Positions 17,861 to 29,453 of a stretch of DNA of 29,820 bases are shown here, piece by piece. The position numbers and the translations under genes were made by a program. Each line of letters starts with the position of its first letter. Within the stretch, counting starts at the first letter, position 1. The notes under the pieces are model-generated. The model was given only the letters and a program-made list of their open reading frames with translations. It was not told the DNA's origin and made no database searches. Source of the stretch: a virus; IMG/VR virus record IMGVR_UViG_3300011114_000701, positions 1-29,820 of that record, one strand, 5' to 3'.

Positions 17861-18304
17861 TCACCCCTCCTCTCCCCCTGTAGGGATGGTCGCTGAACGA
17901 GCCTTCAGGGAGGCGATGCAGAGGGCGAGGGCGGGATTGCGCCAGATGATCGTGCCATCAACCGTTGCCGGGCACTTGTGCTGCCGCCAGCGCGTGATGC
18001 GGCAGCCGTTCTCCATGCTGACCAGCGGTTCGGTGACGACGGCCTCGGATACGCGACCGCCGGGACCGACATGAAGATCGCACCCCATCCCGCTCGGCAC
18101 GAGGGTAAGGGCGGCGTCTACGGACTCCGTGAAATAGAGAGACGACGACTCGCGAAGACCATCGGGCCGCAGCCACGCATAAGATACGTGAGTATCGGCG
18201 GGTCTAGTCCATCCTGCGGCGAGCGCGATTTGGTCGTCTAGCTTCCGGCTCGGCCCCGGCGCAGCGCCCAAAGCCTCAATGAGATGGGTCAGATGTGCGT
18301 CCAT
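17861..18304 (-). CDS. Phage ABA-sandwich domain protein
   Basis: A 147-residue protein of a family common in early regions of rhizobial phages. Diagnostic pieces are 'LDDQIALAAGW' near the N-terminus, 'YFTESVDAALTLVPSG' in the centre and 'NPALALCIASLKARS' near the C-terminus, the alpha-beta-alpha pattern called the phage ABA sandwich domain. The molecular function is unknown. I chose the ATG at 18304, with AAGG about six bases upstream, over a TTG at 18319 that gives a slightly longer product. Its start overlaps the last 16 bases of the HNH endonuclease gene. Confidence 0.8.
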   Translation of the reverse strand: MDAHLTHLIEALGAAPGPSRKLDDQIALAAGWTRPADTHVSYAWLRPDGLRESSSLYFTESVDAALTLVPSGMGCDLHVGPGGRVSEAVVTEPLVSMENGCRITRWRQHKCPATVDGTIIWRNPALALCIASLKARSATIPTGGEEG

Positions 18305-18861
18305 ATGCGCCTTCTGCAAATCAAGCTGATGAGCGACTGGTCGACGCCAAACTCATTCGCCAGCGGGGCAAGGCGCTCCCCATTGCTGCGGCGCCGGCGA
18401 ATATCGAGAACCTGTGGCGTGGTCAGCTTTGCGAGGCTGGCGCGTTCGCCGCGGGCAACGCGATGAGGCTTTGTTTTGCTGCCATTCTTGCTGCCGCAAG
18501 CCCAGAGCCCGCTTGCTATCGCGTGCAGGATGTTTTGTTTGTTTGTCACGGCCTCAAGATTGCCCGGCGCGTTGTTGCGCTTGTTCCCGTCCAAATGATT
18601 AATTTGGAGGCCGACCGGCACTGGGCCAAACCACGCCTCATAAATCGCGCGATGAACCCGAACGGTCTTGCGCCGATAGTTTTCCTGAAACGTTACCTTC
18701 TCGTACCCCCGGTCAGTGACGGATGGCAGCAAGAGCCTCCGCGTTGTTCCGTTGCGCAGCCGCCCGGCGTCAGAGGCTTCGTACCCCCACCCAGGAACGG
18801 AGCGCCATTCCTCGCTTTTCTCCAGCTTCTCGATCAGTTCCTCGATCCCCATGCTCCTCAC
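18289..18861 (-). CDS. Free-standing HNH endonuclease with NUMOD4 domain
   Basis: A 190-residue (187 if started at ATG 18852) DNA endonuclease. Domains in order: NUMOD4 motif (EEWRSVPGWGYEASDAGRLR, about residues 17-36); an HNH nuclease core (VHRAIYEAWFG then INHLDGNKRNNAPGNLEAVT, about 69-108), with the His-Asn-type metal site; and a C-terminal helix-turn-helix (LTTPQVLDIRRRRSNGE, about 146-185) for DNA binding. This is the typical build of free-standing homing endonucleases that spread between phage genomes by cutting alleles lacking them. The region 18470-18720 is visibly less GC-rich than neighbouring genes, consistent with horizontal arrival. The start is uncertain: GTG 18861 has AAGGG directly adjacent; ATG 18852 has AGGAG only one base away. 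Confidence 0.85.
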   Translation of the reverse strand: MRSMGIEELIEKLEKSEEWRSVPGWGYEASDAGRLRNGTTRRLLLPSVTDRGYEKVTFQENYRRKTVRVHRAIYEAWFGPVPVGLQINHLDGNKRNNAPGNLEAVTNKQNILHAIASGLWACGSKNGSKTKPHRVARGERASLAKLTTPQVLDIRRRRSNGERLAPLANEFGVDQSLISLICRRRIWTHI

Positions 18862-18926
18862 CCCTTGTCCGTGGTCGTGGCGGTAGTCTTATCCGCGCTG
18901 AACTCCTGCTCAGAAGAAGCGGTCGG

Positions 18927-19166
18927 TCATGGCTTGGGCTCCCACAGCTTGCCTTCAGGGCCGCATTCGGACCTGGGGAACCGGTGGATGGCTGCACTTC
19001 TGAGATACCGATATGCGGGACGACGCTCGCCATCCACCGGATCAGTTCGCGCCGGGATCTCGATATAGTTCTTGGCACAATCGCCGAAGATGTAGCCGCC
19101 GAAGAGCCTGTCTATCCACGGCAGCCGGAAGTGCTCGCAGTCCTTGCATAGCTTCGTCTCGCTCAT
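18927..19166 (-). CDS. Small four-cysteine putative zinc-binding protein
   Basis: A 79-residue product with a CKDC pair at the N-terminus, a third cysteine in GDCAK and a fourth in SECGPEGKLWEPK, consistent with one zinc site. Proteins of this size ending in 'CGPEGKLWEPK' are frequent in alphaproteobacterial phages and are of unknown function; a regulatory or adaptor role is common for such zinc ribbons. The ATG overlaps the stop of the upstream DUF551-like gene (ATGA). A 66-base stretch separates it from the HNH gene. Confidence 0.78.
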   Translation of the reverse strand: MSETKLCKDCEHFRLPWIDRLFGGYIFGDCAKNYIEIPARTDPVDGERRPAYRYLRSAAIHRFPRSECGPEGKLWEPKP

Positions 19167-19516
19167 CCCTCACTCCCCGGGGTAACGGGAGCGGCGGGTA
19201 GGGGCTGCCAGTGGGTTGGCGATGAAACGCCCTTGGATGTCTCGTCTTTACCGTTGTATGGCTTCCAATCGAAGTCGTTGTCGTCCTCCTCGATCAACTC
19301 GATGCTGCCATTGTTGTAATGAACCAAGATGCTCACGTCCTTCGGCGCCGTTTCAATCGGCCTCCACCCTACCGGCGCCGCCTTGGTGAGGTAGGCGCGG
19401 ATGGCGGCTTCTATCATTCGGCTTCCGCCGTCGCCCTCGTCGAAGTGGAGGCCATATGCGGCGCAAGCCAGCTTCGCCGCCTTCAGTCCTCCCGCGTCCA
19501 GCTTCAGTTCAGCCAT
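19163..19516 (-). CDS. DUF551-like protein, leftward-arm copy
   Basis: A 117-residue protein. Residues 1-48 are helical (LDAGGLKAAKLACAAYGLHF); the second half carries the DUF551-type signature 'GWRPIETAPKD' and ends with 'PTHWQPLPAAPVTP'. The function of DUF551 is unknown, though it is widespread in phages. A second copy of this domain occurs in the rightward operon at 25715-25960. The ATG at 19516 has AGGAG eight bases upstream, while longer in-frame extensions overlap another gene. Its stop overlaps the start of the zinc-type gene. Confidence 0.82.
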   Translation of the reverse strand: MAELKLDAGGLKAAKLACAAYGLHFDEGDGGSRMIEAAIRAYLTKAAPVGWRPIETAPKDVSILVHYNNGSIELIEEDDNDFDWKPYNGKDETSKGVSSPTHWQPLPAAPVTPGSEG

Positions 19517-19899
19517 TGTTTGTCTCCTGAGAGAGCGCGGCGAGCGGCGAGGACGAGGGCGCAGTCGGGGCGCTTGGCGTCGGCTTCCTCGTATCGCCAC
19601 GCTGCCGTCGATGCGGTTCCTTTGGGCGACTGGACCGTTGCGGTCGCTCCGTCGTCGTTCACGATGACGCGCCAGTAGAAACCTGCGGGCAGCATCAGCA
19701 CGCCGACGCCGATCCAGCCGGCGGACGGCCCGTCGAGCAATCGCCACGCTTTAAGGCAACACTCAGCCTGCACAGCACCCTCGGTCGTAGTCCAGTCGCG
19801 TTTCGGCCCCGGCAACCATTCGTTCAGTGCGTCGCCAAGAGCTTTGTGCGCCTCCTCGTTCGTCACCGCCCCCGCCAGCCTCGCATCTACGCCGTCCAT
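19504..19899 (-). CDS. Hypothetical early phage protein
   Basis: A 131-residue protein of no named family. The ATG at 19899 has GGGAGG six bases upstream; an upstream ATG at 19956 is rejected because it lies inside the preceding gene and lacks a ribosome site. The centre 'GVLMLPAGFYWRVIVNDDGA' is beta-rich and similar in layout to small proteins found in phage early regions; the C-terminus ends in a helical 'CALVLAARRALSGDK'. Its last bases overlap the start of the DUF551-like gene by 13 bases. Confidence 0.72.
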   Translation of the reverse strand: MDGVDARLAGAVTNEEAHKALGDALNEWLPGPKRDWTTTEGAVQAECCLKAWRLLDGPSAGWIGVGVLMLPAGFYWRVIVNDDGATATVQSPKGTASTAAWRYEEADAKRPDCALVLAARRALSGDKQWLN

Positions 19900-19900
19900 C

Positions 19901-20293
19901 TCAGCCTCCCTCGGTCTTGCCCGCGAGGGCGGCGCGAGCGGTCGCCAGTTCGGCAACGTAGGTCGGCCCTCGATACGGGCCTACGTGTAGCTGGCTGACC
20001 GTCCAGACGGATTGATAGGCGGGGTCGTCGTGGATGGCGTCCAGCCGAGAAACCAACCCGCGCAGGGCGCCCTCGATCCTCTCCCTCGCCCCCCGCTCGG
20101 CAACAAGCGCGGCCTCGGCTGCTTCGGCGCGGGCAAGAAGTTCGTTCATGCCGGTGTTGCGTGCTTCAGCAAGAGCATCTGATGCAGCGAGGTCGGCGAG
20201 GGTGGCGCGCAATAGATCGGCCGCGTCTACCGTGACGACGGTGTTGATGCGACGGAGGCTCGCGATCAGCCTATCTGCATCCTCAGTCGTCAT
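19901..20293 (-). CDS. Coiled-coil early protein (Ead/Ea22-like layout)
   Basis: A 130-residue protein with a helical, Ala/Glu/Arg-rich coiled coil over residues 40-85 and a C-terminal 'AIHDDPAYQSVWTVSQLHVG' segment followed by 'YRGPTYVAELATARAAL'. That combination is a recurrent one in early operons of phages infecting Proteobacteria, broadly like the lambda Ead/Ea22 type, and has no known function. AGGAG lies eight bases before the ATG at 20293. Its start overlaps the TAA of the tiny membrane-protein gene upstream, which suggests translational coupling. Confidence 0.75.
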   Translation of the reverse strand: MTTEDADRLIASLRRINTVVTVDAADLLRATLADLAASDALAEARNTGMNELLARAEAAEAALVAERGARERIEGALRGLVSRLDAIHDDPAYQSVWTVSQLHVGPYRGPTYVAELATARAALAGKTEGG

Positions 20294-20415
20294 TACCTTT
20301 TCTCCTGTTCAATCCAAGGGATGATTAAGAATGCTATGCCTAAATAAACAGGCACAGCAATAACCAAACCAAGCGCAAGGCCGAACCACACATCATAACT
20401 GGTACATACGTTCAT
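20293..20415 (-). CDS. 40-residue single-span membrane protein
   Basis: A gene too short for usual ORF calling. ATG at 20415, TAA at 20293-20295. The product has one long hydrophobic helix (FGLALGLVIAVPVYLGIAFL) after a short Cys/Tyr N-terminus and ends with EQEKR. Two junctions support it: its ATG overlaps the TGA of the upstream gene (ATGA) and its stop overlaps the ATG of the downstream gene. AAAGGA precedes it by nine bases. The stretch is more AT-rich than its neighbours. The function is unknown; early-expressed small membrane proteins in phages often affect the host envelope or block superinfection. Confidence 0.65.
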   Translation of the reverse strand: MNVCTSYDVWFGLALGLVIAVPVYLGIAFLIIPWIEQEKR

Positions 20416-20738
20416 GACTGCGCGTCCTTTCTCGCTCGGGCGGCGGCCCGGTCCAGGCGCTCAATCTTGGCGAGGATCAGCTCCACCTTGGCACCCATGA
20501 ACGCCATCCATGACAGCGTCACGTCTTCATTGAAATCTAGTTTAGGCGCGTCATCCATGAATTTGCGAAGCTGTGCTAACGCCTCCCGTATCGATGCGTT
20601 CTGCGCCATCAGGCGGTCGATCGCGTCGGCGGCTTCGCGGTGAAATTCTTCGGCCGTGCGCGCGCCGTCTCGACCTGAAATGTAGCTGGCGCGGTCGCGC
20701 AGCCTCTTGCTCAGGTCCGTTGGTATCGTTGCGGTCAT
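20412..20738 (-). CDS. Hypothetical early protein, helical
   Basis: A 108-residue product. The N-terminal third (LSKRLRDRASYISGRDGART) leads to 'AADAIDRLMAQNASIREAL', a pattern seen in many small phage proteins with an Ead-like N-terminus; the remainder is helical. The ATG at 20738 is preferred to an upstream start because it overlaps the HNH-like gene's TGA (ATGA) and has AAGG about ten bases upstream. No catalytic motif is seen. Confidence 0.72.
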   Translation of the reverse strand: MTATIPTDLSKRLRDRASYISGRDGARTAEEFHREAADAIDRLMAQNASIREALAQLRKFMDDAPKLDFNEDVTLSWMAFMGAKVELILAKIERLDRAAARARKDAQS

Positions 20739-21079
20739 CGGTTCTCTGCCTTGTATCTGTGCGGGCTGGCCTTCCAGTGCTCGGCAGCGGACTTGTCGAG
20801 ATTGCACACGTAGTCGCGCTGGAACGTCAGATGGCCGGCGTCATGCAGGATCTTGTGGTGGAGAGCGCAGAGCGGAACGGCCGCGTCGTCTCCCGGCTTC
20901 AACCCCGTGCCGGCGTTGTGAGCGTGCCGAACGTGGTGAGCCTCCATCTTGCCCAGGCACTCCTCCGGGCCTCCGGTGCCAAGGCAGGCGCGGGTGCGGA
21001 CCCAGGCGAGGTGAGATGGTGAGTTGATCCGCGTAGGCTGGCGGACGCCCATCTTGGGACGGGTGCGGGCGCGGATCAT
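20735..21079 (-). CDS. HNH-like nuclease / DUF968-type protein
   Basis: A 114-residue protein with two cysteines (ACLGTG and EECLGK), then 'MEAHHVRHAHNAGTG', 'AAVPLCALHHKILHDAGH'. The HH...N...C..HH..LH arrangement is that of compact HNH-type nucleases with a bound zinc, as in DUF968-type phage recombination proteins. It would cut DNA, possibly in recombination or in degradation of host DNA. Start ATG 21079; longer in-frame starts overlap the neighbouring gene. Its end overlaps the next ATG. It is encoded close to the Gp157-like and annealing-like genes, which supports a role in DNA metabolism. Confidence 0.78.
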   Translation of the reverse strand: MIRARTRPKMGVRQPTRINSPSHLAWVRTRACLGTGGPEECLGKMEAHHVRHAHNAGTGLKPGDDAAVPLCALHHKILHDAGHLTFQRDYVCNLDKSAAEHWKASPHRYKAENR

Positions 21080-21591
21080 CGCCGCCGCTCCGCCATGCGT
21101 CCGGTCGCCTGCTCGTAGTCGACCATGAGCGCGTGCCATTTCGTTGCCGCCTCGGTGCCCGGCTTGATGTCCGCCCGCGTCTCGACGCCGCAGATGGCGC
21201 GCACCAGCGGGCCTACCGTATCCTTGTTGACCTCCGTGCCGTTGTACCGGGCCGAAAGCCACTTCTGGAAATCCGGGTCCGCGCACGTCATCCCGATACG
21301 GTTGGCGAGCGTGTATTCCTTTCGGTCTCCCACCGAGGCGACAGGCTGCTTCGGTTCTGCGGGGGTGCTGCCTGTGGCGACGGATTGGGGCGTCGCCTGA
21401 TCCAACGCCTCGGGGGAGATTTGTGCGACCGCAACCCACCGCGCGATGTCCGGCCGAGGAATGCCGCCAAGCGCCAAGAGTGCGTGGTCAGCTTCCTCTA
21501 TCGGGACCTCGACAACGATCTGAGCGACCTTCCGGCCCTTGACGAGGCGGAAGTCTGAGAACGTCGCTTTGAAGGCGGCGGGGGCGGTCAT
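21076..21591 (-). CDS. Hypothetical protein of the recombination region
   Basis: A 171-residue product found next to recombination genes. The N-terminal domain (FSDFRLVKGRKVAQIVVEVP, then ALLALGGIPRPDIARWVAVA) is a beta-alpha unit that I have seen repeatedly in rhizobial phage early regions; a linker of Pro/Thr follows; the C-terminal helical domain contains 'DPDFQKWLSARY' and ends in 'DYEQATGRMAERRR'. No enzymatic motif is visible. There is no clear ribosome site before the ATG at 21591, but the upstream gene stops three bases earlier, so coupling is likely. Confidence 0.72.
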   Translation of the reverse strand: MTAPAAFKATFSDFRLVKGRKVAQIVVEVPIEEADHALLALGGIPRPDIARWVAVAQISPEALDQATPQSVATGSTPAEPKQPVASVGDRKEYTLANRIGMTCADPDFQKWLSARYNGTEVNKDTVGPLVRAICGVETRADIKPGTEAATKWHALMVDYEQATGRMAERRR

Positions 21592-21593
21592 GG

Positions 21594-21848
21594 TCAGAAT
21601 GGATCAAGCGCGGCGGCGATAGGAGCCGGCGTCTCGGTCTCGCGCCGCTGCTCATCGCTCATCTTCAGCGACAGGAACTTCGCCTTCCCGTTCTCGCCGC
21701 CCTTCCGCCAGCCGGCAAGGCGCAGCTTCTCGCCGGCCTTGATGTCCCGGTGCGCGGTGATGTAGCCGGTATGCGAGGGCGACTTGTCGCTAGTGCCCTT
21801 GGTGTTCTGGAAAAGCACGCCGTCGCCGGGTTTCTCTTGGTAGGCCAT
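21594..21848 (-). CDS. Small DNA-metabolism protein with SSB-like C-terminal tip
   Basis: An 84-residue protein beginning 'GDGVLFQNTKGTSDKSPSHT' and with 'KLRLAGWRKGG' and 'AKFLSLKMSDEQ', a beta-rich unit common among phage and plasmid proteins of the 'VLFKN....HPDYTG' type, for which no activity is known to me. The last residues, IAAALDPF, resemble the acidic-hydrophobic tip of single-stranded DNA binding proteins (DDDIPF), although only one acidic residue is present. AGGA lies eight bases before the ATG. It sits next to the annealing-like protein, fitting a helper role, but this is inference. Confidence 0.72.
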   Translation of the reverse strand: MAYQEKPGDGVLFQNTKGTSDKSPSHTGYITAHRDIKAGEKLRLAGWRKGGENGKAKFLSLKMSDEQRRETETPAPIAAALDPF

Positions 21849-21857
21849 CGTCGTTTC

Positions 21858-22586
21858 CTATGCTGCGAGTACGGTGAGCCGCTTGCGGGCGGCGGAGAGG
21901 GCGGTCTGGACCTTCTGCCACTCGGACGCCGAGCCGTTCTTGATGGCTGCCAGGTGGTCGGCGTTGTCGTCCTCGAACTTCAGGAGGGCGTCCGGGTGGG
22001 GGCAGGTTGCAGCGGCCTTCACGAACTTGACGGCGAAGGTCAGGAGATCGTTGCCGGGGAGTTCGTAGCTGGTGCCCTTCCAGAAGCGGGTGATGGCGTC
22101 CTCAGCGGCCGGCTTGGGCGATACCGCCGGCATCATGCCCCCGCCTACCAGCGCCTCGGCTCCCTTCGCGAGCGGCTTCGTCTCCGCCTCGACGGCGCCC
22201 TTCGGCTTGTCCTTGAAGTCGTCGGCCTCTTCCTCGCTGTGGATGTAGGCCGACAAGCCGGCAAGCTTCAGGATCACGCGATCCTTGGCCCGTTTCTCGG
22301 CCATTGCGTAGGGGTAGGCGTTCTTGTTGTTGCCGGGCGCCGCCTCGCCGATGGACCACTCTGAGCGGTCTCCCATGCGGCCTACGGCACAGATGGCGAC
22401 GATCTTGTCACCCGACCGTGCCTCGATGATCTGCGGCGGGTCGAAGGTGATGCCAGCCTTGGCGGCGATCAGTTCGCAGGTCTTGTGGTAGATCACCAGC
22501 GTCCCGTGGCAATCCCATAGCGCCTCGTCCGGCTTCAGGTCGTAGCGCGCCAGGATCTCCGCCAGTTCCTTCTTGACCTTCGCCAT
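21858..22586 (-). CDS. Putative single-strand-annealing-like early protein
   Basis: A 242-residue protein. The N-terminal 120 residues include 'YDLKPDEALWDCHGTLVIYH', 'VAICAVGRMGDRSEWSIGEA' and 'AYPYAMAEKRAKDRVILKL'. The last stretch, a helix with an AEKRAKDR core after beta strands, is like the helix of Rad52/Erf-type annealing proteins ('AET.A..RA'), and the gene lies beside the Gp157-like gene as such proteins often do. The C-terminal part is a Lys/Ala/Glu linker plus a helical domain (DAITRFWKGTSY, ATCPHPDALLKFEDDNADHL). I infer a role in recombination or replication-coupled repair, but the assignment is tentative; no catalytic motif proves it. Confidence 0.75.
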   Translation of the reverse strand: MAKVKKELAEILARYDLKPDEALWDCHGTLVIYHKTCELIAAKAGITFDPPQIIEARSGDKIVAICAVGRMGDRSEWSIGEAAPGNNKNAYPYAMAEKRAKDRVILKLAGLSAYIHSEEEADDFKDKPKGAVEAETKPLAKGAEALVGGGMMPAVSPKPAAEDAITRFWKGTSYELPGNDLLTFAVKFVKAAATCPHPDALLKFEDDNADHLAAIKNGSASEWQKVQTALSAARKRLTVLAA

Positions 22587-22588
22587 GG

Positions 22589-23116
22589 CTATTTCTTCCT
22601 CACGCTAAGAGAGACGCCGCCATTCGACAGGACGCAGCCCGGAATCTCGGTATTCGCCTTCAGTGCGTCGGCGATCTTCTTCTTGTCTGGCTTCGGTGTC
22701 GGCGGCTCGGGCGTGTTCATGTAGGCGGCGGGGATCAGGGCTTCGTCAGTGACGACAATCTTGGACGGGGCCTGACGCAGCGACAGGGTGAAATCGGCAG
22801 CCTCGATCCGCGACATGTTTGCCCGCTCCATCACCCGGCAGACGATCTCCCGCTTGGCCTCGATCCGCCGCGCCAGCCGCTCGCCCCGCTCCGATAGCTC
22901 GGCAAGCCGTTCCTTGATCCCCGTCACCAGCATGGCGTCGTCTTCGGTCGATCGCATGACGGCGACGAGCATCTGGTCGAGGTTGCTTTCGCCCTCAAGG
23001 GTGTCGGCCAAGGTCTGTTCGTCCGCGTCTGGAAACTGCACCCGGAGCTGGTCCCGCAGGTACTCGTGGTTGGTGAGCGCGGCGACGACCTGGTGGACGG
23101 TCGGGTCAGGCTGCAT
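22589..23116 (-). CDS. Gp157-family phage protein
   Basis: A 175-residue protein with the Gp157 layout: 'LADTLEGESNLDQMLVAVMR' near the N-terminus, a long coiled coil with Arg/Glu (ERGERLARRIEAKREIVCRV), 'AADFTLSLRQAPSKIVVTDE', 'IPAAYM', 'KKKIADALKANTEIPGC'. The family is widespread in phage recombination or replication clusters; in streptococci it was linked to phage resistance, but its biochemical activity is not known. GGAG stands seven bases before the ATG at 23116. The gene's start overlaps the end of the next upstream gene by 11 bases. Confidence 0.85.
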   Translation of the reverse strand: MQPDPTVHQVVAALTNHEYLRDQLRVQFPDADEQTLADTLEGESNLDQMLVAVMRSTEDDAMLVTGIKERLAELSERGERLARRIEAKREIVCRVMERANMSRIEAADFTLSLRQAPSKIVVTDEALIPAAYMNTPEPPTPKPDKKKIADALKANTEIPGCVLSNGGVSLSVRKK

Positions 23117-23333
23117 CTTTCATCTCCACCGCCCTAGCGCCGCCGGTCAGGTGCCCCTTTGTCGGTGAGCACAGGTCCGTCAGCCGCTTCGCCAGTTCCG
23201 CCAGCTCGGCAGCGTTCCCGGTGAGGCAATGCCCCGTCGCCTCATGCTCGATGCTCAGAAGCGAACTCCTGATCCGGTCAAGGTGATAGCGGACGTTGCC
23301 CAGGTTCAGGGGGGGCACAAGGGACATGCTCAT
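23106..23333 (-). CDS. Small helical early protein
   Basis: A 75-residue product (MSMSLVPPLN at the start, then NVRYHLDRIRSSLLSIEHEA and 'NAAELAELAKRLTDLCSPTK'). It is probably a helical bundle; no family recognised. The ATG at 23333 forms an ATGA overlap with the upstream 58-residue gene; the longer in-frame version up to 23663 has no support and overlaps two real genes. Confidence 0.7.
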   Translation of the reverse strand: MSMSLVPPLNLGNVRYHLDRIRSSLLSIEHEATGHCLTGNAAELAELAKRLTDLCSPTKGHLTGGARAVEMKDAA

Positions 23334-23506
23334 GACCGCACCTGCGCCTGGCTCTCCATCTCGATCTTGCCCGCGACTCGGGCGGAGTGCGCCAGCGCCG
23401 CGTCGGCCTGTTCCTTCGCCGGCTTGAACTGCGGGACGTTCGCCTTCAGCCACTCGATCTGCTTGGGGCCGAGGTCTTTCCGCGCGGGAACGGATAGGGT
23501 CAGCAT
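23330..23506 (-). CDS. 58-residue early protein
   Basis: A short gene with ATG at 23506 and TGA at 23330-23332. AGGAG lies eight bases upstream and both ends overlap neighbours by four bases or fewer (ATGA junctions), so it is very likely real. The sequence begins 'MLTLSVPARKDLGPKQIEWL' and continues as one charged helix (KEQADAALAHSARVAGKIE). No function can be proposed from it; a small helical protein-binding factor would fit. Confidence 0.7.
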   Translation of the reverse strand: MLTLSVPARKDLGPKQIEWLKANVPQFKPAKEQADAALAHSARVAGKIEMESQAQVRS

Positions 23507-23754
23507 CAGACGATCTCCTTTTGTGGCTTCGCCGGTTGGGACTGCGCTTCGTTCTGGGGCTTCGGTGGGTCCCCGCCGTCGAGGATGCGGATGATGTTGC
23601 GGAGAGCGGCGCCACGGACGAATAGAGCCTCGGGATCGATAGTGGGATCGGCCACCAGTCCATCCCGTGCCAGCCTCAGCACCACATCTCGCAAGGCTTC
23701 CGCCTCACTTCTCGGGGCATGGCGTTCGAGGCATGGCGATCCTGCTGTGGTCAT
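23506..23754 (-). CDS. Hypothetical early protein
   Basis: An 82-residue protein with a helical core (EAEALRDVVLRLARDGLV, AALRNIIRILDGG) and a disordered Pro/Gln/Lys tail. No family recognised. ATG at 23754 overlaps the TGA of the upstream gene, and its own stop overlaps the ATG of the 58-residue gene; it is therefore placed in a coupled chain. Confidence 0.7.
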   Translation of the reverse strand: MTTAGSPCLERHAPRSEAEALRDVVLRLARDGLVADPTIDPEALFVRGAALRNIIRILDGGDPPKPQNEAQSQPAKPQKEIV

Positions 23755-24119
23755 GCGCGGTCTCCGAGGGCGCGGCGGATGTCATTGATCGACACGCGCT
23801 CATCCCCAACTTCCAAGCGCCCATCGGGGCGCCGGTTGGCGTGTGCCGATCTCGGCAGCGCCTCGATCACCTCAAGCACGGCCGCGCGGTCGGCATCGAG
23901 GACGGCTTGCATGTCACGCACTGCCGACATGGAGGGGCTTTTCCAAAAGATGTTGACGGCAGCGTCGGCGGTCAGGAGCTTGGGGCGAAGCGCCTCGTCC
24001 TTCGCCTCGAAAGCGCGGGCCAACAGATCGAGCGGACCAGCCAGCGGCTCGTTCATGCGCCGAGCCTCCTTCACGTTGAAGGCCGCCTTGACGATCTCTT
24101 TATCGAAGTCTGTGGTCAT
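23751..24119 (-). CDS. Hypothetical early protein
   Basis: A 122-residue product starting MTTDFDKEIVKAAFNVKEAR. The rest is helical ('LAGPLDLLARAFEAKDEAL', 'AVLDADRAAVLEVIEALPR') and ends 'VSINDIRRALGDRA', suggesting a small all-alpha protein. The ATG at 24119 is chosen over an upstream ATG at 24173, because it overlaps the TGA of a tiny membrane-protein gene and has GGAG nine bases upstream. No named family. Confidence 0.7.
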   Translation of the reverse strand: MTTDFDKEIVKAAFNVKEARRMNEPLAGPLDLLARAFEAKDEALRPKLLTADAAVNIFWKSPSMSAVRDMQAVLDADRAAVLEVIEALPRSAHANRRPDGRLEVGDERVSINDIRRALGDRA

Positions 24120-24217
24120 GACTGCAAACTCCACTTCGCCAGGAGCAGCCCAATGGCGATTCCTGCCAAGCAACCGCTCGCAAGACCCATCGAAAATAGG
24201 AACACATTGAGACTCAC
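24116..24217 (-). CDS. 33-residue single-span membrane peptide (GTG start)
   Basis: GTG at 24217, TGA at 24116-24118. The product is a single hydrophobic helix (FLFSMGLASGCLAGIAIGLL) with a short N-terminus and a 'AKWSLQS' tail. Support: GGAGA eight bases before the GTG, and the stop overlaps the ATG of the next gene (ATGA). It is the second hydrophobic micro-gene in this operon, after 20293-20415, though the sequences are not alike. Too short to classify; a phage envelope effector or holin-like peptide is possible. Confidence 0.5.
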   Translation of the reverse strand: MSLNVFLFSMGLASGCLAGIAIGLLLAKWSLQS

Positions 24218-24265
24218 TTATTCTCTCCCATGCTCGTCATCAAAGCCTCTCCATGCCTTGCCCAA
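24218..24265 (-). CDS. Possible 15-residue ORF after an amber stop
   Basis: After the TAG that ends the next gene (24272-24274) the same frame continues for 17 codons to TAA at 24218-24220 and reads AWLGKAWRGFDDEHGRE. A TTG at 24265 could start a 15-residue peptide. The segment looks protein-like, so it could be a micro-gene or the cut-off tail of the 59-residue protein. Weak evidence. Confidence 0.2.
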   Translation of the reverse strand: MGKAWRGFDDEHGRE

Positions 24266-24271
24266 CCACGC

Positions 24272-24451
24272 CTAACCCCGACTGTCCTCGTCGTTAGTCC
24301 GTTGCCTCGGGATCTCGATCACGCGCGGGCTGTACCCGTCCTCTACCGCCCTCTGGTACTTGGCCTTCCGCAGGGCCTCGGCAACGGCATCGGTGAGGCT
24401 TTCGACACGGAGGGGAGGCCGGGGGCGGAGAGGGATGATTTGCGCGGTCAT
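24272..24451 (-). CDS. 59-residue early protein
   Basis: Product begins 'MTAQIIPLRPRPPLRVESLT', continues with a helix (DAVAEALRKAKYQRAVEDGY) and ends 'PRVIEIPRQRTNDEDSRG' at TAG. The proline-arginine N-terminus followed by one helix suggests a small binding protein. GAGG precedes the ATG at 24451 by nine bases; the long in-frame extension to 24589 overlaps a real gene. The frame stays open past the TAG for 17 more codons. Confidence 0.62.
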   Translation of the reverse strand: MTAQIIPLRPRPPLRVESLTDAVAEALRKAKYQRAVEDGYSPRVIEIPRQRTNDEDSRG

Positions 24452-24452
24452 G

Positions 24453-24617
24453 CTAGTCGACCTCGTGCGTCTTGCTGACGATGCGTTCACAGACCTCGCA
24501 GTACTCGTAGACGCCGATCCCGCCGCCAGCGAGGCCATAGCTTTTCTCGAACTGGGGCGGGCAATCGGCGCGGGCGCACCGCTCCGCAAGGCCGACAGGG
24601 GGGAGCGTCTCAGCCAT
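24453..24617 (-). CDS. 54-residue four-cysteine putative zinc-ribbon protein
   Basis: ATG at 24617, TAG at 24453-24455, with GGAG nine bases upstream. The product has ERCARADC (Cys14, Cys19) and 'YEYCEVCERIVSK' (Cys40, Cys43), a spacing that fits one zinc-binding ribbon. Small zinc ribbons in phage early operons commonly bind nucleic acid or host transcription proteins; here that remains inference. The gene is too short for common gene-calling limits. It stands between two coupled genes, leaving three bases to the upstream stop. Confidence 0.65.
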   Translation of the reverse strand: MAETLPPVGLAERCARADCPPQFEKSYGLAGGGIGVYEYCEVCERIVSKTHEVD

Positions 24618-24620
24618 CGT

Positions 24621-25019
24621 CTATTCTCCCGCCTGTGGCCGCCGCTCGATCCTGTCGAGCATGTCGTCGTCCCGCCGCGCCTCTGCCCTGCGCTCCATCG
24701 CGTCGTCGCGCCCGCCCCGCCAGTGATCGAGGGCCAACGCTTCCAACTGTTCGGTCAGCGGCTCGACCATCCACTCAGGGAGAGGGTGGCGGGCGTCCAG
24801 CGTCTTCACGCCACGGACGATGGACTCGGCGAGGATGTAGACCGACCCAATCTCGACGTGCTCGGGCTCGGGCGGATCGATGGGCGCGTACTCGCCGCGT
24901 GGCGTGTAGGCCGGCGAGCCCTTGTGATAGGCGTACTCGACCACCAGCCGCTTCCACTCGTGTTCCGCATCCCCAGGACCGATCGAGAGGAGGAGGGCGC
25001 ATTCGTACTTGTGCATCAT
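24621..25019 (-). CDS. Hypothetical early protein
   Basis: A 132-residue protein (131 if the second Met is used). It starts 'MMHKYECALLLSIGPGDAEH', has 'RGEYAPIDPPEPEHVEIG' in the middle, and ends with a helical Arg/Glu/Asp-rich tail. No family named, although this 'HEW.R..VEY..H.G....PRGEYAPIDPPE' type recurs in alphaproteobacterial phages. The upstream AGGAG is three bases from the first ATG (25019) but six from the second (25016), so the second is the more likely start. Confidence 0.75.
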   Translation of the reverse strand: MMHKYECALLLSIGPGDAEHEWKRLVVEYAYHKGSPAYTPRGEYAPIDPPEPEHVEIGSVYILAESIVRGVKTLDARHPLPEWMVEPLTEQLEALALDHWRGGRDDAMERRAEARRDDDMLDRIERRPQAGE

Positions 25020-25102
25020 AATCTCCTGTTGTCAGTCGTCTGCCTGCTGCTCACTCGGGGGAGCCCGTCCCGGGTGAGCCGAAGGAAGGCGGGGGAGGTC
25101 AT
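25016..25102 (-). CDS. 28-residue coupled micro-ORF
   Basis: An ORF that exactly fills the gap between two genes: its ATG at 25102 overlaps the TGA of the gene ending at 25099 (ATGA), and its TGA (25016-25018) overlaps the start codons of the next gene. The product MTSPAFLRLTRDGLPRVSSR plus eight residues is basic and has no known relative. Overlap on both sides is its only strong support; it may serve to carry ribosomes to the next gene rather than to make a functional peptide. Confidence 0.4.
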   Translation of the reverse strand: MTSPAFLRLTRDGLPRVSSRQTTDNRRL

Positions 25103-25425
25103 GACGCGGAACCGGACTTAGCGAGGGCAGCGCGACACTTTTCGATGGCGCGGATGCAGCGGTCGTCGGCCGCCTCGCTCTCATCGTAGGCATCGGTGGC
25201 CGCAACGACTTCCACCATTGCCCCGTAGAGAGCGCCAACCCCGCGCTCCTCAACGGCCTTGAGCGCGTCGAGATAGCCGCGGTCGTGTCCGGCGCCGTAG
25301 CTGCTCACCGCCTCGACGCGGCTTTCCTTCGCGTTCTCAGCGGCGAGCTCGATTTCTTCGGCCAGCCACTCCGCGAACGATTGTTCGCCCGGCGTATGCT
25401 TGAGGTCTTCTGCGGCTGTGGGCAT
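25099..25425 (-). CDS. First gene of the leftward early operon, hypothetical
   Basis: A 108-residue acidic, helical protein (FAEWLAEEIELAAENAKESR; AGHDRGYLDALKAVEERGVG; DRCIRAIEKCRAALAK). No named family. GAGGAG stands eight bases before the ATG at 25425, and a promoter candidate with a perfect TTGACA lies upstream within the operator array. As the promoter-proximal gene it should be the earliest and most strongly expressed product of this arm. It may be a host-takeover or regulatory factor, but nothing in the sequence proves this. Confidence 0.72.
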   Translation of the reverse strand: MPTAAEDLKHTPGEQSFAEWLAEEIELAAENAKESRVEAVSSYGAGHDRGYLDALKAVEERGVGALYGAMVEVVAATDAYDESEAADDRCIRAIEKCRAALAKSGSAS

Positions 25426-25450
25426 CGGGGTCTCCTCTGTGGTGAGGGGA

Positions 25451-25480
25451 ACAATGCGCCCGCTTGCGACAGTCTGTCAA
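25451..25480 (-). promoter_or_regulatory. Leftward promoter candidate
   Basis: On the minus strand TTGACA (25475-25480) and CATTGT (25451-25456) are separated by 18 bases. The -35 element is a perfect consensus and the -10 matches at three positions. The -35 overlaps the right half of operator site 1, so a bound repressor would block it. It would drive the operon starting at 25425. Confidence 0.55.
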
Positions 25481-25511
25481 GCGACATTTTGTCATTGACC
25501 GACATTATGCC
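25468..25511. promoter_or_regulatory. Three operator-like sites of the form GACA-N3-TGTC
   Basis: Site 1 GACAGTCTGTC (25468-25478) and site 2 GACATTTTGTC (25483-25493) are 11-base palindromes with the same half-sites; site 3 GACATTATGCC (25501-25511) keeps the left half-site and a weaker right. Spacing is 15 and 18 bases start to start. The array lies between divergent early operons, next to a small HTH gene. Confidence 0.65.
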
Positions 25512-25524
25512 TCCATGCTATTCC
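25495..25524 (+). promoter_or_regulatory. Rightward promoter candidate
   Basis: TTGACC at 25495-25500, between operator sites 2 and 3, with a weak -10 (TATTCC, 25519-25524) after 18 bases. Transcription would start near 25530, only a few bases from ATG 25533, so the first mRNA could be leaderless. This fits the lack of a ribosome site before that gene. The -10 is poor, so confidence is limited. Confidence 0.4.
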
Positions 25525-25532
25525 ATCGGGCC

Positions 25533-25718
25533 ATGACTGGGAAACAATTTTCCGCCCTCTTGGATCGGCTTTACGGCCCAGACAAGACCGCAATCAAGGC
25601 CGCCGAGGCTCTGGAATGCTCAAAGCGCACGATTGAGCGATACCGCGCCAGGCGCAAAGTCCCGCCGCTGGTCGCGCGTGCGCTGGCGGAGATAGCGGCC
25701 ACGATGAGGGCCGCATGA
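25533..25718 (+). CDS. Small helix-turn-helix regulator (Cro/CII-like role)
   Basis: A 61-residue basic protein. Residues 17-43 form a helix-turn-helix: DKTAIKAAEALECSKRTIER followed by YRARRKVPPLVARALAEI. The pattern 'IKAAEALECSKRTIERYRA' is that of phage XRE-like or antirepressor-type DNA-binding proteins. It is the first gene right of the operator array and is therefore the best candidate for the protein that binds those sites. The ATG at 25533 is preferred; an in-frame ATG at 25515 adds six residues. Neither has a clear ribosome site, which is consistent with leaderless translation. Its stop overlaps the next ATG. Confidence 0.75.
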   Translation: MTGKQFSALLDRLYGPDKTAIKAAEALECSKRTIERYRARRKVPPLVARALAEIAATMRAA

Positions 25719-25960
25719 CCACCTCCCCGCAAGGCTGGATGCCGATAGAGACGGCGCCGAAGGATGGGACGCGCGTTGATCTCTGGTATCCGCGCATCGG
25801 TCGGAGGATCGACTGCTATTTCCGCGGCGCCCCTTTCAACTGCTGGGGATGGGATGAGCCGGACCCGGAGGGCGTTGACGGCGAGACGTACTTCGTCGTG
25901 CTCGGGAGTGTTGAACCTACCCACTGGCAGCCTCTCCCCGCTCCCCCGGTGTCCGCATGA
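25715..25960 (+). CDS. DUF551-like protein, rightward-arm copy
   Basis: An 81-residue protein that is almost entirely the DUF551-type unit: 'GWMPIETAPKDGTRVDLWYP' at the N-terminus and 'EPTHWQPLPAPPVS' at the C-terminus. It is paralogous to the second half of the protein at 19163-19516. The function of the family is unknown. ATG overlaps the stop of the HTH gene (ATGA), and its own stop overlaps a 28-residue ORF. Confidence 0.82.
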   Translation: MTTSPQGWMPIETAPKDGTRVDLWYPRIGRRIDCYFRGAPFNCWGWDEPDPEGVDGETYFVVLGSVEPTHWQPLPAPPVSA

Positions 25961-26043
25961 CCCATTCCCTCTGCGCTGAACGTCTGCCTTCGCGTCCGTC
26001 GCCACTACGTATCGGGACAAGCCCGGAGGAGGGGGGAGAGTGA
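25957..26043 (+). CDS. 28-residue coupled micro-ORF
   Basis: ATG at 25957 overlaps the TGA of the DUF551-like gene, and its TGA (26041-26043) overlaps the GTG of the next gene. The 28-residue product (MTHSLCAERLPSRPSPLRIG then TSPEEGGE) has no known relative. It contains the second copy of the 22-bp repeat. Coupling is the only support. Confidence 0.35.
   Translation: MTHSLCAERLPSRPSPLRIGTSPEEGGE
26004..26025 (+). repeat. 22-bp near-identical direct repeat, copy 2
   Basis: Same orientation and 21 of 22 identical bases with 17620-17641. The CGGG-acaag-CCCG core is shared. It lies in the short stretch before the XF1762-like gene. Confidence 0.75.
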
Positions 26044-26483
26044 AACTGTCTCTCTGCCCCGTCACCCTGGCCGAGGCGAACGCCTACGTTCGCCTGCATC
26101 ATCGCCATCACAAGCCGGTCGTCGGGCACAAGTTCTCGCTCGGCGCCGTTCTCGACGGGGCGTTGGTCGGCGTCGCCATCGTTGGTCGGCCTGTCGCTCG
26201 GATGCGTGATGACGGCTCGACGCTGGAAGTGACGCGGCTTTGCACGGACGGCACGCGGAACGCTTGCTCGTTTCTGTATGGAGCGTGCGCGCGAGCTGCT
26301 TTTGCCCTCGGGTTCAAGCGGATCGGAACCTACGTCTTTGCCTCTGAGACGGGCGGGAGCGTGTCGGCTGCCGGCTGGCGGATGATCGGCGAGACGAAGG
26401 GCGGCTCCTGGTCTCGCGCTGATCGCGCCCGCGTTGACAAGCATCCGACCGAGCCGAAGCTGCTTTTCGAGTGCGCCGCATGA
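26040..26483 (+). CDS. XF1762-family (GNAT-like) phage protein
   Basis: A 147-residue protein with the highly conserved pieces of the XF1762 family: 'PVTLAEANAYVRLHHRHHKP', 'GHKFSLGAVLDGALVGVAIV', 'LEVTRLCTDGTRNACSFLYG' and 'ARAAFALGFKRIGTYVFASE'. The layout (beta-alpha with a central acetyl-CoA-like turn) places it near GNAT-fold acetyltransferases; the substrate is unknown. The GTG at 26040 follows a long GGAGGAGGGGGG stretch, an unusually strong ribosome site. Its stop overlaps the methyltransferase ATG. It is frequent in phages of Proteobacteria. Confidence 0.85.
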   Translation: MKLSLCPVTLAEANAYVRLHHRHHKPVVGHKFSLGAVLDGALVGVAIVGRPVARMRDDGSTLEVTRLCTDGTRNACSFLYGACARAAFALGFKRIGTYVFASETGGSVSAAGWRMIGETKGGSWSRADRARVDKHPTEPKLLFECAA

Positions 26484-27403
26484 GCTCACTTCGCCAATCT
26501 CCTGACGATGCGCTTAGCCAGGGCGCCGATGGGCTGCCAACAATCCGGCGTCCGCTCGCCATCGATCTGTTCTGCGGCCTTGGCGGTTGGACCGAAGGCT
26601 TGCTTGCCGCCGGGTATGACGTGATCGGCTTCGACATCGAGCGGCACGTCTACGGCGAGCATCGCTATCCCGGCATTCTCGCCATTCAGGACGTGCTCAC
26701 GCTTCACGGCTCGCAGTTCAAGGACGCCGCGCTGATCGTCGCCTCGCCGCCCTGCCAGGCATACAGCTACCGGGCGATGCCATGGAAGAAGGCGAAGGCG
26801 CTGCCGCCCCCGGACAACGCGCTTTTCGAGGCTTGCTTCCGTATCCAGCGGGAGGCTTGCGAGGCGGCCGGCCGGCATATCCCGATGGTCGTCGAGAACG
26901 TGCGCGGCGCTCAGAAATGGGTCGGGCGAGCGCGGTGGTCGTTCGGCAGCTTTTACCTTTGGGGTGATGTGCCCGCGCTGATGCCGATGACAAGGCGCGA
27001 ATTCAAGGTTGGTGGGACAAAACTGTCCTCCGTTGGATTCAACGTCGCCTGCGTCAGAAAGTTCGCACACGGCGACCCCAACGTCACGATGGCGGACGGG
27101 CGAAAGAACGGGAACGACTGGTTCGGTGCCGGTGCCGATTGCTCGTTGCAACGGCGGCACGGCTCCAAGTCCACCGGCCGCAAGTTCGCCTCCGCCATGA
27201 TCGCCAAGATCCCGCGCCCGCTCTCCGAGCACATCGCTCGCGCGTGGTTCCCTGTCCATTTCGGCCGCGCCATCGCTATCCCCACTCCCTGCGATGACGC
27301 GAAGACTGAGGGGAGGGCCTGCATCAGCATGCTCCGGCCCTCCCCTCCTTTCTCGTCGATTAGCTCGCCAGAGGAAAGCACAAGGCGCCATGACGGCACA
27401 TGA
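26480..27403 (+). CDS. DNA (cytosine-5) methyltransferase
   Basis: A 307-residue S-adenosylmethionine-dependent enzyme that methylates cytosine at carbon 5. Motif I 'DLFCGLGGWTEG' (29-40) binds the cofactor, motif IV 'SPPCQAYSYR' (89-98) holds catalytic Cys92, and motif VI 'VVENVRG' (137-143) holds the Glu that protonates the base. The target-recognition region follows and is short. The C-terminal 40 residues (after HFGRAIAIPTP) are low-complexity Ser/Pro-rich and are unlike the family; the coding DNA there contains a strong hairpin, so the real functional end may be near residue 270. ATG at 26480 overlaps the preceding stop. It may protect phage DNA from host restriction. Confidence 0.88.
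   Translation: MSSLRQSPDDALSQGADGLPTIRRPLAIDLFCGLGGWTEGLLAAGYDVIGFDIERHVYGEHRYPGILAIQDVLTLHGSQFKDAALIVASPPCQAYSYRAMPWKKAKALPPPDNALFEACFRIQREACEAAGRHIPMVVENVRGAQKWVGRARWSFGSFYLWGDVPALMPMTRREFKVGGTKLSSVGFNVACVRKFAHGDPNVTMADGRKNGNDWFGAGADCSLQRRHGSKSTGRKFASAMIAKIPRPLSEHIARAWFPVHFGRAIAIPTPCDDAKTEGRACISMLRPSPPFSSISSPEESTRRHDGT
27308..27351 (+). terminator. Terminator-like hairpin inside the methyltransferase 3' end
   Basis: GAGGGGAGGGCC (27308-27319) pairs perfectly over 12 bases with GGCCCTCCCCTC (27336-27347). The 16-base loop contains a further GCAT/ATGC stem. A short T-run (CTTTCT) follows. It stands 68 bases before the next gene. Factor-independent termination or attenuation is plausible; the T-tract is short, so strength is uncertain. 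Confidence 0.6.
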
Positions 27404-27422
27404 GACACGAAGGAGACGATGA
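27390..27422 (+). CDS. Possible 10-residue leader peptide MTAHETRRRR (doubtful)
   Basis: ATG at 27390 with AAGG upstream, TGA at 27420-27422, overlapping the ATG at 27419. Four consecutive Arg codons (CGA AGG AGA CGA) include the ribosome site AGGAG of the next gene. It also overlaps the end of the methyltransferase gene. It is very short and may be chance. Confidence 0.15.
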   Translation: MTAHETRRRR

Positions 27423-28297
27423 GAATGACAGCCCTTAGAGACATCAATCCCCAGCGACACGCGGAAATGTGGCTAGCCAATCAGATTGCCCGCGGCAGAC
27501 GAGAGGTGTTTTCCGTCGTCGCGCCCCTGACGCCGGAGTTGGCCGCCCTCCTTCTGAAAAACAACGATCACAACCGGGCGCCGAAGTCGATCATTCATCA
27601 ATTCAAGACGGACATGATTGAGGGGCGGTGGGAGCTGAACGGCGAGTCCATCGTCATCGCATCGACCGGCGAGGTAAACAACGGGCAACACCGACTGCGC
27701 GCAGTAGCCGAGACCGGCTGCACTATTCAAACGGTCATCACTTTCGGGGTTTCGCGGGACACCCGGTTTTCAACGGATACGGGAACGGTCAAGTCGCCGG
27801 GCGACCTGCTGACGATGAGGGAATACACCGACGGCAACAATCTCGCCGCGGTCGCCTCATACCTGTGGCAGATCGATACCCGCGGTCGAATCCCTGTCGT
27901 TTCGCATTCGCCGCAGAACCGGCCGACGAAACAGCAAGTGCAGGCTACGGTTGCCATCTACGCCGACAAGATCCAGGACGCCTTCCGGAAAATCCAGAAG
28001 TCGACCAAGGTTTGCAGCTATTCGCTCTCCATCACGGCCTACCTCTACATCGGCGCCATTACCGGCGATGAAGATGCCGCGGGGGCCTACATCAACCAGT
28101 TGGCGAAGGGCGCCAATCTGGATGAGAACGACCCCATCTTCGTTGCCCGCGAGCGGATGCTGGATGAAAAGCGCCGCCGCTCTCTTTGGCCGGCGAAGGC
28201 GATGGAGATCATCCTTCGCGGTTGGAATTTTCATCGCCGCGGGGAGCGTCCGACGCGAATCCAGCTCATGGGCGAGTGGCCGAAGGTCGTTCGGTGA
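27419..28297 (+). CDS. ParB/DGQHR-like phage protein
   Basis: A 292-residue protein (290 if ATG 27425 is used). Residues about 35-95 carry the ParB/sulfiredoxin-like core: 'LTPELAALLLKNNDHNRAPK', 'MIEGRWELNGESIVIASTGE', 'VNNGQHRLRAVAETG'. The NGQHRL motif corresponds to the (D/N)GQHR signature, as in DndB-type and phage ParB-like proteins. The rest is helical, ending 'ERPTRIQLMGEWPKVVR'. The family occurs widely in phages, and its role is not firmly known; DNA binding or nucleotide hydrolysis is likely. AGGAG at 27411-27415 is three bases before the first ATG and nine before the second. It follows the hairpin and so may be separately transcribed. Confidence 0.75.
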   Translation: MRMTALRDINPQRHAEMWLANQIARGRREVFSVVAPLTPELAALLLKNNDHNRAPKSIIHQFKTDMIEGRWELNGESIVIASTGEVNNGQHRLRAVAETGCTIQTVITFGVSRDTRFSTDTGTVKSPGDLLTMREYTDGNNLAAVASYLWQIDTRGRIPVVSHSPQNRPTKQQVQATVAIYADKIQDAFRKIQKSTKVCSYSLSITAYLYIGAITGDEDAAGAYINQLAKGANLDENDPIFVARERMLDEKRRRSLWPAKAMEIILRGWNFHRRGERPTRIQLMGEWPKVVR

Positions 28298-28725
28298 CCA
28301 CTCCCGTGACCATCACCTTGCTCGGCGAGCCCAGGGGGAAGGGGCGGGGGCGCGCAACCGTGTCGAAGAAGACCGGCCGCGCTTTCGTCTTCACCCCCGA
28401 GGCGACCAAGAACTACGAGGGCATGCTTCGCGACGCGGCGGGCAAGGAGATGGCCGGGCGCGTTCCTTTCGAGGGCGCCGTCGAGGTTGTGATGCTGGCT
28501 CAGTTCATGCCGGCCGCGTCGTGGTCGAAGAAGAAGCAGGCGGCGGCTTTGCGTGGCGAGGTCATGCCGACGAAGAAGCCGGACGCCGACAACCTCCTGA
28601 AGTGCCTGGACGCCCTCAATCAGATCGTCTGGCGCGACGATGCCCAGGTGGTCACGGCGACCGTGCGGAAGCGATACGGCACGTCGGCCGCGCTCATCAT
28701 CACGGCGAAGGAGATCGGAGCATGA
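28294..28725 (+). CDS. rusA: RusA-family Holliday junction resolvase
   Basis: A 143-residue endodeoxyribonuclease that cuts four-way DNA junctions made in replication and recombination. Key signatures are 'LLGEPRGKGRGRATVS' at the N-terminus and 'KKPDADNLLKCLDALNQIVW' with Asp97, Asp99 and Asp106, then 'RDDAQV' with Asp115 and Asp116, the metal-binding acidic set of RusA. Length matches the family (about 120-140). The GTG at 28294 overlaps the preceding TGA; longer in-frame versions overlap that gene. Its TGA overlaps the ATG of the next gene. It probably resolves branched phage DNA before packaging. Confidence 0.9.
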   Translation: MTTPVTITLLGEPRGKGRGRATVSKKTGRAFVFTPEATKNYEGMLRDAAGKEMAGRVPFEGAVEVVMLAQFMPAASWSKKKQAAALRGEVMPTKKPDADNLLKCLDALNQIVWRDDAQVVTATVRKRYGTSAALIITAKEIGA

Positions 28726-28982
28726 CCCTTCCCACGCAAGCCGACCAGATCTTAGCCCACCTAGAGAGCGGGCAGACGATCACGCCCATAGAGGCGCTGG
28801 AGCTGTACCGCTGCTTCAGGCTCGCGGCGCGCATCGCCGACCTCAAAGCCCTCGGGCACAACATCCTGACGGAGATGGTGGAGAGCCCTGAAGGCAAACG
28901 GTACGCCCGCTATCAGCTTATCCCTCCCGTCCCCTTCAGGGAGCCGGTGCAGATCGCGCTGTTCGACATGGCGGAGGCATAG
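28722..28982 (+). CDS. Helix-turn-helix protein (HTH_39-like)
   Basis: An 86-residue product. 'QADQILAHLESGQTITPIEA' and 'LELYRCFRLAARIADLKALG' form a small winged-helix type fold typical of HTH_39 proteins in phages, with the recognition helix at about residues 30-45 and a wing ('RYARYQLIP') near 65. It would be a DNA-binding regulator of unknown target. ATG at 28722 overlaps the stop of the resolvase gene. Confidence 0.78.
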   Translation: MTLPTQADQILAHLESGQTITPIEALELYRCFRLAARIADLKALGHNILTEMVESPEGKRYARYQLIPPVPFREPVQIALFDMAEA

Positions 28983-28985
28983 CCC

Positions 28986-29453
28986 ATGGACACCCTCCCT
29001 ACACCCAACCCGACAGAGGGACGCGAGGTTGCGCGGATACTCTGGACGCCCGAGTACGACGCTATCTTGCGCGAGGAGTGGTCCAAGGGCACCGCCGCCC
29101 GTGACATCGCCGCCATCCTGACGGCCGCGGGCTTCTCTCAGACGCGGAACGGCATCCTCGGCCGGGCGCACCGGAAGGGCTTGGCGAGGCACATCAACGC
29201 GAACACGAAGGGCCGCCCTCCCAAGCCTCGCCCCGCCATCATCCGGCCCGACTTCTCCAAGCCGCTCGCCCCGACCGGCTGCCGCTACATCCACGGCGAC
29301 GCGGCGGGATGGCAGTCGAAGTGGTGCGACGCGCCGCTGGCCGATCCTGACGGCTCATGGTGCGCCCGGCATCGGGCCATCGTCTTCAGGCCGCAGAACA
29401 TCGCCGAGACGGCAGCGGCGGCCGGAACATACAAGAACAAGAGGGCGGCATGA
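28986..29453 (+). CDS. gcrA: GcrA-type cell-cycle regulator homologue
   Basis: A 155-residue protein. The N-terminal domain reads 'WTPEYDAILREEWSKGTAAR' (20-39), 'DIAAILTAAGFSQTRNGILG' (40-59) and 'RAHRKGLARH', the helix-turn-helix of GcrA that binds DNA near CcrM-methylated GANTC sites and recruits sigma70 RNA polymerase. A linker (GRPPKPRPAI) leads to a C-terminal domain with cysteines in 'GCRYIHGD', 'SKWCDAPL' and 'WCARHRAIV', as in GcrA's sigma-binding region. Host GcrA controls replication and division genes in Alphaproteobacteria, so the phage copy may redirect them or use host methylation signals. ATG 28986 follows the previous stop by three bases. Confidence 0.85.
   Translation: MDTLPTPNPTEGREVARILWTPEYDAILREEWSKGTAARDIAAILTAAGFSQTRNGILGRAHRKGLARHINANTKGRPPKPRPAIIRPDFSKPLAPTGCRYIHGDAAGWQSKWCDAPLADPDGSWCARHRAIVFRPQNIAETAAAAGTYKNKRAA

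Follow-up and report, generated by a model that had tools for sequence, protein, structure and literature searches.

The DNA analysed here, called the window throughout, is the complete linear IMG/VR virus record IMGVR_UViG_3300011114_000701, with a length of 29,820 bases. It carries tail, lysis, and early genes; genes for terminase, portal, and capsid proteins were not recognised in those 29,820 bases, and the record is probably a genome fragment. The early genes form two diverging operons, one running leftward (25425 to ~18289) and the other rightward (25533 to ~29453). They are separated by one 107-base gap without a gene, the sole divergent gap of the window, and this gap houses a cluster of operator-like sites (Table 1).

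Table 1. Features in and around the divergent early control region, in window positions.
Feature	Position	Strand	Description
Remaining leftward early operon	18289..25019	-	Gp157-like, recombination protein, HNH
First leftward-operon gene	25099..25425	-	Function unknown; homologues in L001 (74%) and L002 (58%), leftward of C repressors
Shine-Dalgarno of first leftward gene	25432..25437	-	GAGGAG, from the sequence
Putative leftward -10	25451..25456	-	CATTGT, from the sequence; 18-nt spacer; weak
Site 1	25468..25478		GACAGTCTGTC; exact GACA-N3-TGTC; perfect 11-bp palindrome with central T; overlaps leftward -35
Leftward -35 (PL)	25475..25480	-	TTGACA, from the sequence; overlaps site 1
Site 2	25483..25493		GACATTTTGTC; exact GACA-N3-TGTC; between both -35s; 15 bp from site 1
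Rightward -35 (PR)	25495..25500	+	TTGACC, from the sequence and aligned with relatives; between sites 2 and 3
Site 3	25501..25511		GACATTATGCC; one mismatch, TGCC for TGTC; in rightward spacer; 18 bp from site 2
Putative rightward extended -10	25516..25524	+	TGCTATTCC, from comparison with relatives; 18-nt spacer to TATTCC; upstream TG
61-aa XRE/Cro-type HTH protein	25533..25718	+	First gene of the rightward operon; fold predicted; ATG 8 nt past -10
Remaining rightward operon	25715..29453	+	DUF551, Mom-like, C5-methylase-like, phrog_5931, RusA, HTH_39, GcrA-like

The label of the leftward recombination protein derives from the annotation of its homologue in phage Pam5. In the rightward operon, the gene for a Mom-like DNA modification protein overlaps that of the C5-methylase-like protein (26040-27403), and the two are likely to form a DNA-modification pair. 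No viral relative turned up in a search with the phrog_5931 protein. The GcrA-like cell-cycle regulator encoded at 28986-29453 would fit a host among the Alphaproteobacteria.

The site cluster is real. An initial annotation had described three GACA-N3-TGTC sites between the two early operons, and both their placement in the divergent gap and their span of 44 bases (25468-25511) are correct. Sites 1 and 2 conform exactly to the motif, whereas site 3 is imperfect. The search of the full record suggested in that annotation found no exact GACA-N3-TGTC site beyond these two. One-mismatch matches across the whole window numbered 11, against 8.4 +/- 2.7 expected, which is the level of chance. Simulated windows held 0.13 triple clusters per 29.8 kb when any 4-base inverted half-site with a spacer of 0-8 was counted, and two exact sites plus a near one arose in none of 20,000 local Markov sequences, a count that applies to a motif picked after the fact. 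The exact sites are confined to the early promoters and flank TTGAC, which places them in the GACA-N3-TGTC (GGAC-N5-GTCC) operator class. Two known motifs do not fit and were set aside. The mycobacteriophage L5 stoperator is asymmetric (GGTGGMTGTCAAG) and dispersed through the genome; site 1 is symmetric, the exact sites occupy one gap only, and the GGTGG part is absent there. PHO boxes are CTGTCAT direct repeats with an 11-bp period, and the TGTCA repeats of the window lie 15 bp apart.

Both -35 hexamers were recovered where the initial annotation had put them, the leftward one over site 1 and the rightward one between sites 2 and 3. Its back-to-back promoters hold in respect of these -35s and of PR, which fits the relatives described below, but both -10s are weak. 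A promoter consensus scan lifted neither PL nor PR over its threshold because both -10 hexamers (CATTGT and TATTCC) are poor. PR is also supported by its position relative to the ATG of the HTH gene: at only 0.1% of random positions does a -35/-10 pair as good as this one end 5-9 nt away. The pair is the best among 32 gene starts, tied by one GTG start (26471).

Relatives were reached through two leftward genes. The first leftward gene led to two IMG/VR contigs, L001 and L002, and the recombination gene led to 69 viral loci, Rhizobium phage RHph_Y1_10 (MN988487), Pseudanabaena phage Pam5 (ON014757), and a Chelativorans xinjiangense prophage (L153). RHph_Y1_10 and Pam5 share with the window the homologous recombination gene, the gene order around the control region with a Cro-like gene first, and a GcrA gene; in RHph_Y1_10, DUF551 likewise follows directly after the Cro-like gene, and RusA is also present. 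Unlike the window, each also encodes an integrase and a divergently oriented C repressor. In L001, L002, and L153, too, the control region includes an HTH gene or a pair of ORFs in divergent orientation. In L001, the C and Cro labels come from position and from a weak HTH_3 match there, and neither protein matched Pfam.

A common plan underlies PL and PR in these relatives, namely an operator, a TTGAC-type -35, a second operator in the spacer, and the -10. The operator sequence differs among L001, L002, RHph_Y1_10, Pam5, and L153, and the plan is kept. Their leftward promoters read TAGCATTTTTCCTA - TTGACG - TAGCAATCATCCTA - TATTAT (L001), GATACAGATTGTAC - TTGCGC - GATACGGAGCGTAC - TACTAT (L002), GTCACATCGGGTGTAACA - TTGACG - GTCACATGGGGTGCTACA - TACAAC (RHph_Y1_10), GTTGCGAGATGCGCA - TTGCAT - GTTGCGAGTTGCGCA - AACTGT (Pam5), and AGGACATTTCGTCCT - TTGACA - AGGACAAACGGTCCT - TACATT (L153), the last operator sometimes reaching into the start of the -10. 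The operators of RHph_Y1_10 are TGTNAC-type and those of Pam5 TTGCGCA-type, unlike those of the window; the promoter/operator layout is the same. PR of the window reads site 2 - TTGACC - site 3 - TATTCC, and PL reads site 2 - TTGACA (overlapping site 1) - CATTGT. Site 2 lies upstream of PR at the position of the first operator (OA) in the relatives. The order of elements therefore follows the plan of the relatives, with the middle operator shared between the two promoters. An automated layout scan, run with -10 and identity thresholds that proved too strict, recovered the promoters of L001 and L153 and missed those of the window and L002, which were read by eye. As the same layout recurs in the relatives, the comparison of sequences supports the view that the gap controls the early genes through operators placed over its two divergent promoters.

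A lambda-type lysis/lysogeny immunity region would be expected to have repeated dyad operators that overlap its divergent early promoters, a small Cro-type HTH gene at the head of the rightward operon, and, between PL and PR, a gene for a CI/C repressor; an integrase or another lysogeny function would also be expected. The first is found in the window, and so is the second on the strength of a predicted fold. The third is absent from the 107-base gap. Moreover, 19 of 21 related records match HTH_3 (PF01381) and 11 of 21 (10 over the cut-off) match the integrase family (PF00589), whereas the window, in itself a fragmentary record, matches neither. The places that the repressor and the integrase occupy in the relatives both fall inside the window, without either gene. 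Either gene could still be encoded beyond the ends of the record. The "classic genetic switch" of the initial annotation is not borne out by this gene content.

The small HTH open reading frame to the right of the sites is present as first described. Searches with its product found no homologue in phage or plasmid records (E<=0.01), in viral contigs or genomes (E<=1e-3), or in 297 genomes of one order. Matches to curated families stayed below cut-off (best Pfam HTH_17, 17.2 bits against 27), and no sequence match was found in the PDB. A single-sequence AlphaFold model was poor (pLDDT 68.6). The model built with an alignment of six sequences, five of them HTH proteins of the related loci, reached a pLDDT of 86.5 and a pTM of 0.68, with C and Cro proteins mixed in that alignment at 16-28% identity. 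Four helices are predicted (residues 3-14, 19-27, 31-39, and 45-60), and the model has the four- to five-helix fold of the XRE/Cro-CI superfamily, with the HTH at helices 2-3. Its structural neighbours belong to the XRE family: NE0471, Aca2, HigA2, Aca1, 434 repressor, and N15 Cro. Top hits gave query TM-scores of ~0.5-0.75, and Foldseek E-values against the PDB were all >0.1, which is not unusual for a chain of 61 residues. The best pairwise similarities are to the HTH protein of L220 (z 3.8), the L204 repressor (z 3.7), and the Cro-like protein of L002 (z 3.6). The first two adjoin GACA-N3-TGTC sites, and the operators of L002 are GTAC-type. That two of the three best matches are encoded beside such sites is only suggestive.

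The ATG of the HTH gene lies 8 bases after TATTCC, inside the range of 5-9 bases that separates the PR -10 from the Cro-like ATG in L001, L002, RHph_Y1_10, Pam5, L153, L198, L204, and L207. Hence, a leaderless or near-leaderless cro-like mRNA is predicted for the window and these eight phages. By locus, the Cro-like genes predicted to be leaderless are those of L001, L002, L072, L074, L153, L198, L204, and L207. Such transcripts have precedents: in the immB region of PY54, the cro and cI mRNAs were shown to be leaderless (PMC4488713), and cryptic prophage CP-933P has a leaderless CI analogue, paaR2, with YdaS acting as Cro (PMC8630535).

The half-site had been described as unfamiliar for a phage repressor, which proves too strong, as it marks PL and PR in at least five other phage contigs, usually in the form GGACA-N3-TGTCC. 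A scan for site - TTGAC - site returned L198, L204, L207, and L222, each with two outward-facing copies; the opposite second pair was outside the search condition. In the stretches examined, L198, L204, L207, L217, and L222 have exactly four exact sites each, arranged as two pairs, one at PL and one at PR. These five IMG/VR contigs resemble the window in the GACA-N3-TGTC core around TTGAC and in the restriction of exact sites to PL and PR. They differ in that the sites of a pair are 23 bp apart and 0.4-1.7 kb lies between the pairs. In L198, L204, and L207, for which genes were listed, an XRE repressor gene stands between the pairs, unlike in the window, and a Cro-like gene follows directly after PR, leaderless by prediction where checked. 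L220 comes closest in register. It has at least six GACA-N3-TGTC sites upstream of an XRE gene, mostly CGACA-N3-TGTCG, and C rather than G likewise precedes GACA in the window sites. One pair of L220 matches the site 2/site 3 register of PR: its sites are offset by 18 bp and enclose TTGAC, and TATACT stands exactly where the window has TATTCC. A further near-site lies 16 bp upstream of the pair, against 15 in the window. A GAC-N5-GTC operator class thus appears, from these sequence comparisons, to recur in otherwise different phages, and the window seems to hold a compact, repressor-less version of a familiar type of control region, with a half-site that is not unique among phages.

Taken together, we consider it probable (roughly 60%) that the gap is a compacted PL/PR region of the lambda type in a phage of the alphaproteobacterial kind, repressor-less and lytic, in which a Cro-like autorepressor limits early gene expression. 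Upon infection, the host RNA polymerase would start both early operons, and the 61-aa protein would be made from the near-leaderless PR mRNA. As a dimer, it would fill the three sites: site 1 covers the leftward -35, so that its occupation would block PL; site 3 fills the rightward spacer, and its occupation would block PR; site 2, lying between both -35s, would be shared between the promoters. Build-up of the protein would repress both early operons through Cro-like negative feedback, and the promoters would be turned down as the phage moves on to replication and late gene expression. This would amount to the lytic role of lambda Cro without CI. Since the C repressor gene is absent between PL and PR, the region is read as a brake on early genes and not as a switch between lysis and lysogeny. 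The phage itself is probably obligately lytic, with temperate ancestry. Several points count against this reading. The half-site centres are only 7 bp apart, which is short for a classical HTH dimer, and the HTH protein is equally similar (z 3.6) to the Cro-like protein of L002, with its GTAC-type operators. The weak -10s, the fragmentary record, the failure of the sequence searches to find a homologue of the HTH protein, the mixed alignment behind its better model, and the high Foldseek E-values weigh against it as well.

A more specific proposal, to which we would give slightly less than even odds, is that the region constitutes a natural "Cro-only" unit of the GAC-N5-GTC class, in which PL and PR are fused back to back around a shared central operator and the leaderless 61-aa protein runs the early programme. 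If so, what remained of a lambda-type switch after loss of the repressor would be the Cro loop and its operators, condensed into 44 bases. The role of Cro without CI would then be directly testable with a 100-bp reporter. The GACA-N3-TGTC class and the predicted leaderless cro-like mRNAs, linked across several phages by this comparison, could aid the annotation of early control regions in metagenomic contigs.

Compared with PL-PR of lambda and P22 (OL/OR, CI, Cro), the window likewise has operators that flank the -35 and fill the spacer of the early promoters, a Cro-like gene at the head of the rightward operon, and a leftward recombination operon. It departs from them in that the stretch between the promoters lacks both PRM and a CI/C gene, in the single cluster of three 11-bp sites, 15 and 18 bp apart, for both promoters, and in its near-leaderless cro-like gene. 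A small Cro-type protein and divergent promoters are also found in the immB region of telomere phage PY54 (PMC4488713) and in CP-933P (PMC8630535); unlike the window, both have a CI-type repressor, and their operators are unrelated.

A true lysis/lysogeny switch, in which the sites are bound by the HTH protein acting as immunity repressor or by a C repressor whose gene lies beyond the record, is unlikely in our estimate. It draws on the XRE repressors of phages with GACA-N3-TGTC operators (L198, L204, and L207), on the integrases in the L204, L207, and L217 records, and on the window protein being about as similar to the L204 repressor (z 3.7) as to any Cro; the fragmentary nature of the contig also leaves room for it. 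However, the place of the relatives' repressor between PL and PR is empty, the leftward operon lacks the integrase found in RHph_Y1_10 and Pam5, the window has no further HTH_3 match, and 61 residues are too few for an oligomerisation domain of the CI type.

Less probable still is that the sites serve a host regulator or an autorepressor of the Aca/HigA type instead of a Cro equivalent. Aca2, Aca1, and HigA2, the nearest solved folds, are likewise XRE autorepressors, and the L220 gene adjoining the same sites is MqsA-antitoxin-like. Against this, the exact sites are restricted to the PL/PR gap, the HTH gene heads its operon like the Cro-like genes of the relatives, and no neighbouring toxin or anti-CRISPR candidate was recognised. 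Coincidence, in which the half-sites are by-products of two outward-facing TTGACA-like -35s, is very improbable. Parts of the half-site are indeed contained in TGTCAA and TTGAC, and site 3 is imperfect, but neither site 2 nor the outer half of site 1 or site 3 is explained by the -35s; only 0.13 triple clusters are expected per window, and independent phages repeat the layout.

The wider scans also yielded material outside the control region. A pattern scan for tandem sites returned 72 viral loci, which were rejected as relatives given that a control pattern of the same composition gave 36; about half of the 72 are background, and many others belong to one marine phage group with dispersed dyads. 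The hits of an exact scan for the leftward half were marine and coding, and were likewise discarded as relatives. Dispersed CGACA-N3-TGTCG-like dyads characterise 15 marine-type low-GC phage contigs (L087, L088, L102, L103, L104, L108, L109, L120, L127, L131, L137, L138, L142, L148, and L150), with 3-18 dyads per contig against <0.2 expected. Many of these dyads lie outside ORFs, with tandem pairs 15 bp apart adjoining TTGAC, and they are possibly a stoperator-like or multi-promoter regulatory motif. In six phage contigs (L097, L110, L123, L145, L146, and L151), CTGACA-N3-TGTCAG-like arrays with a 15-bp period occur mostly inside open frames. Eight further loci (L226, L227, L229, L231, L233, L239, L240, and L243) carry a conserved noncoding element composed of GACA-N3-TGTC, GC, and TTGACA-N17-TATAAC, in which the spacing from site to -35 is the same as at PL of the window. 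Lastly, a leftward gene product in L204 (7166-8158) and L198 (1054-1740) contains a run of AASSTGxxG repeats that differs in copy number between the two.
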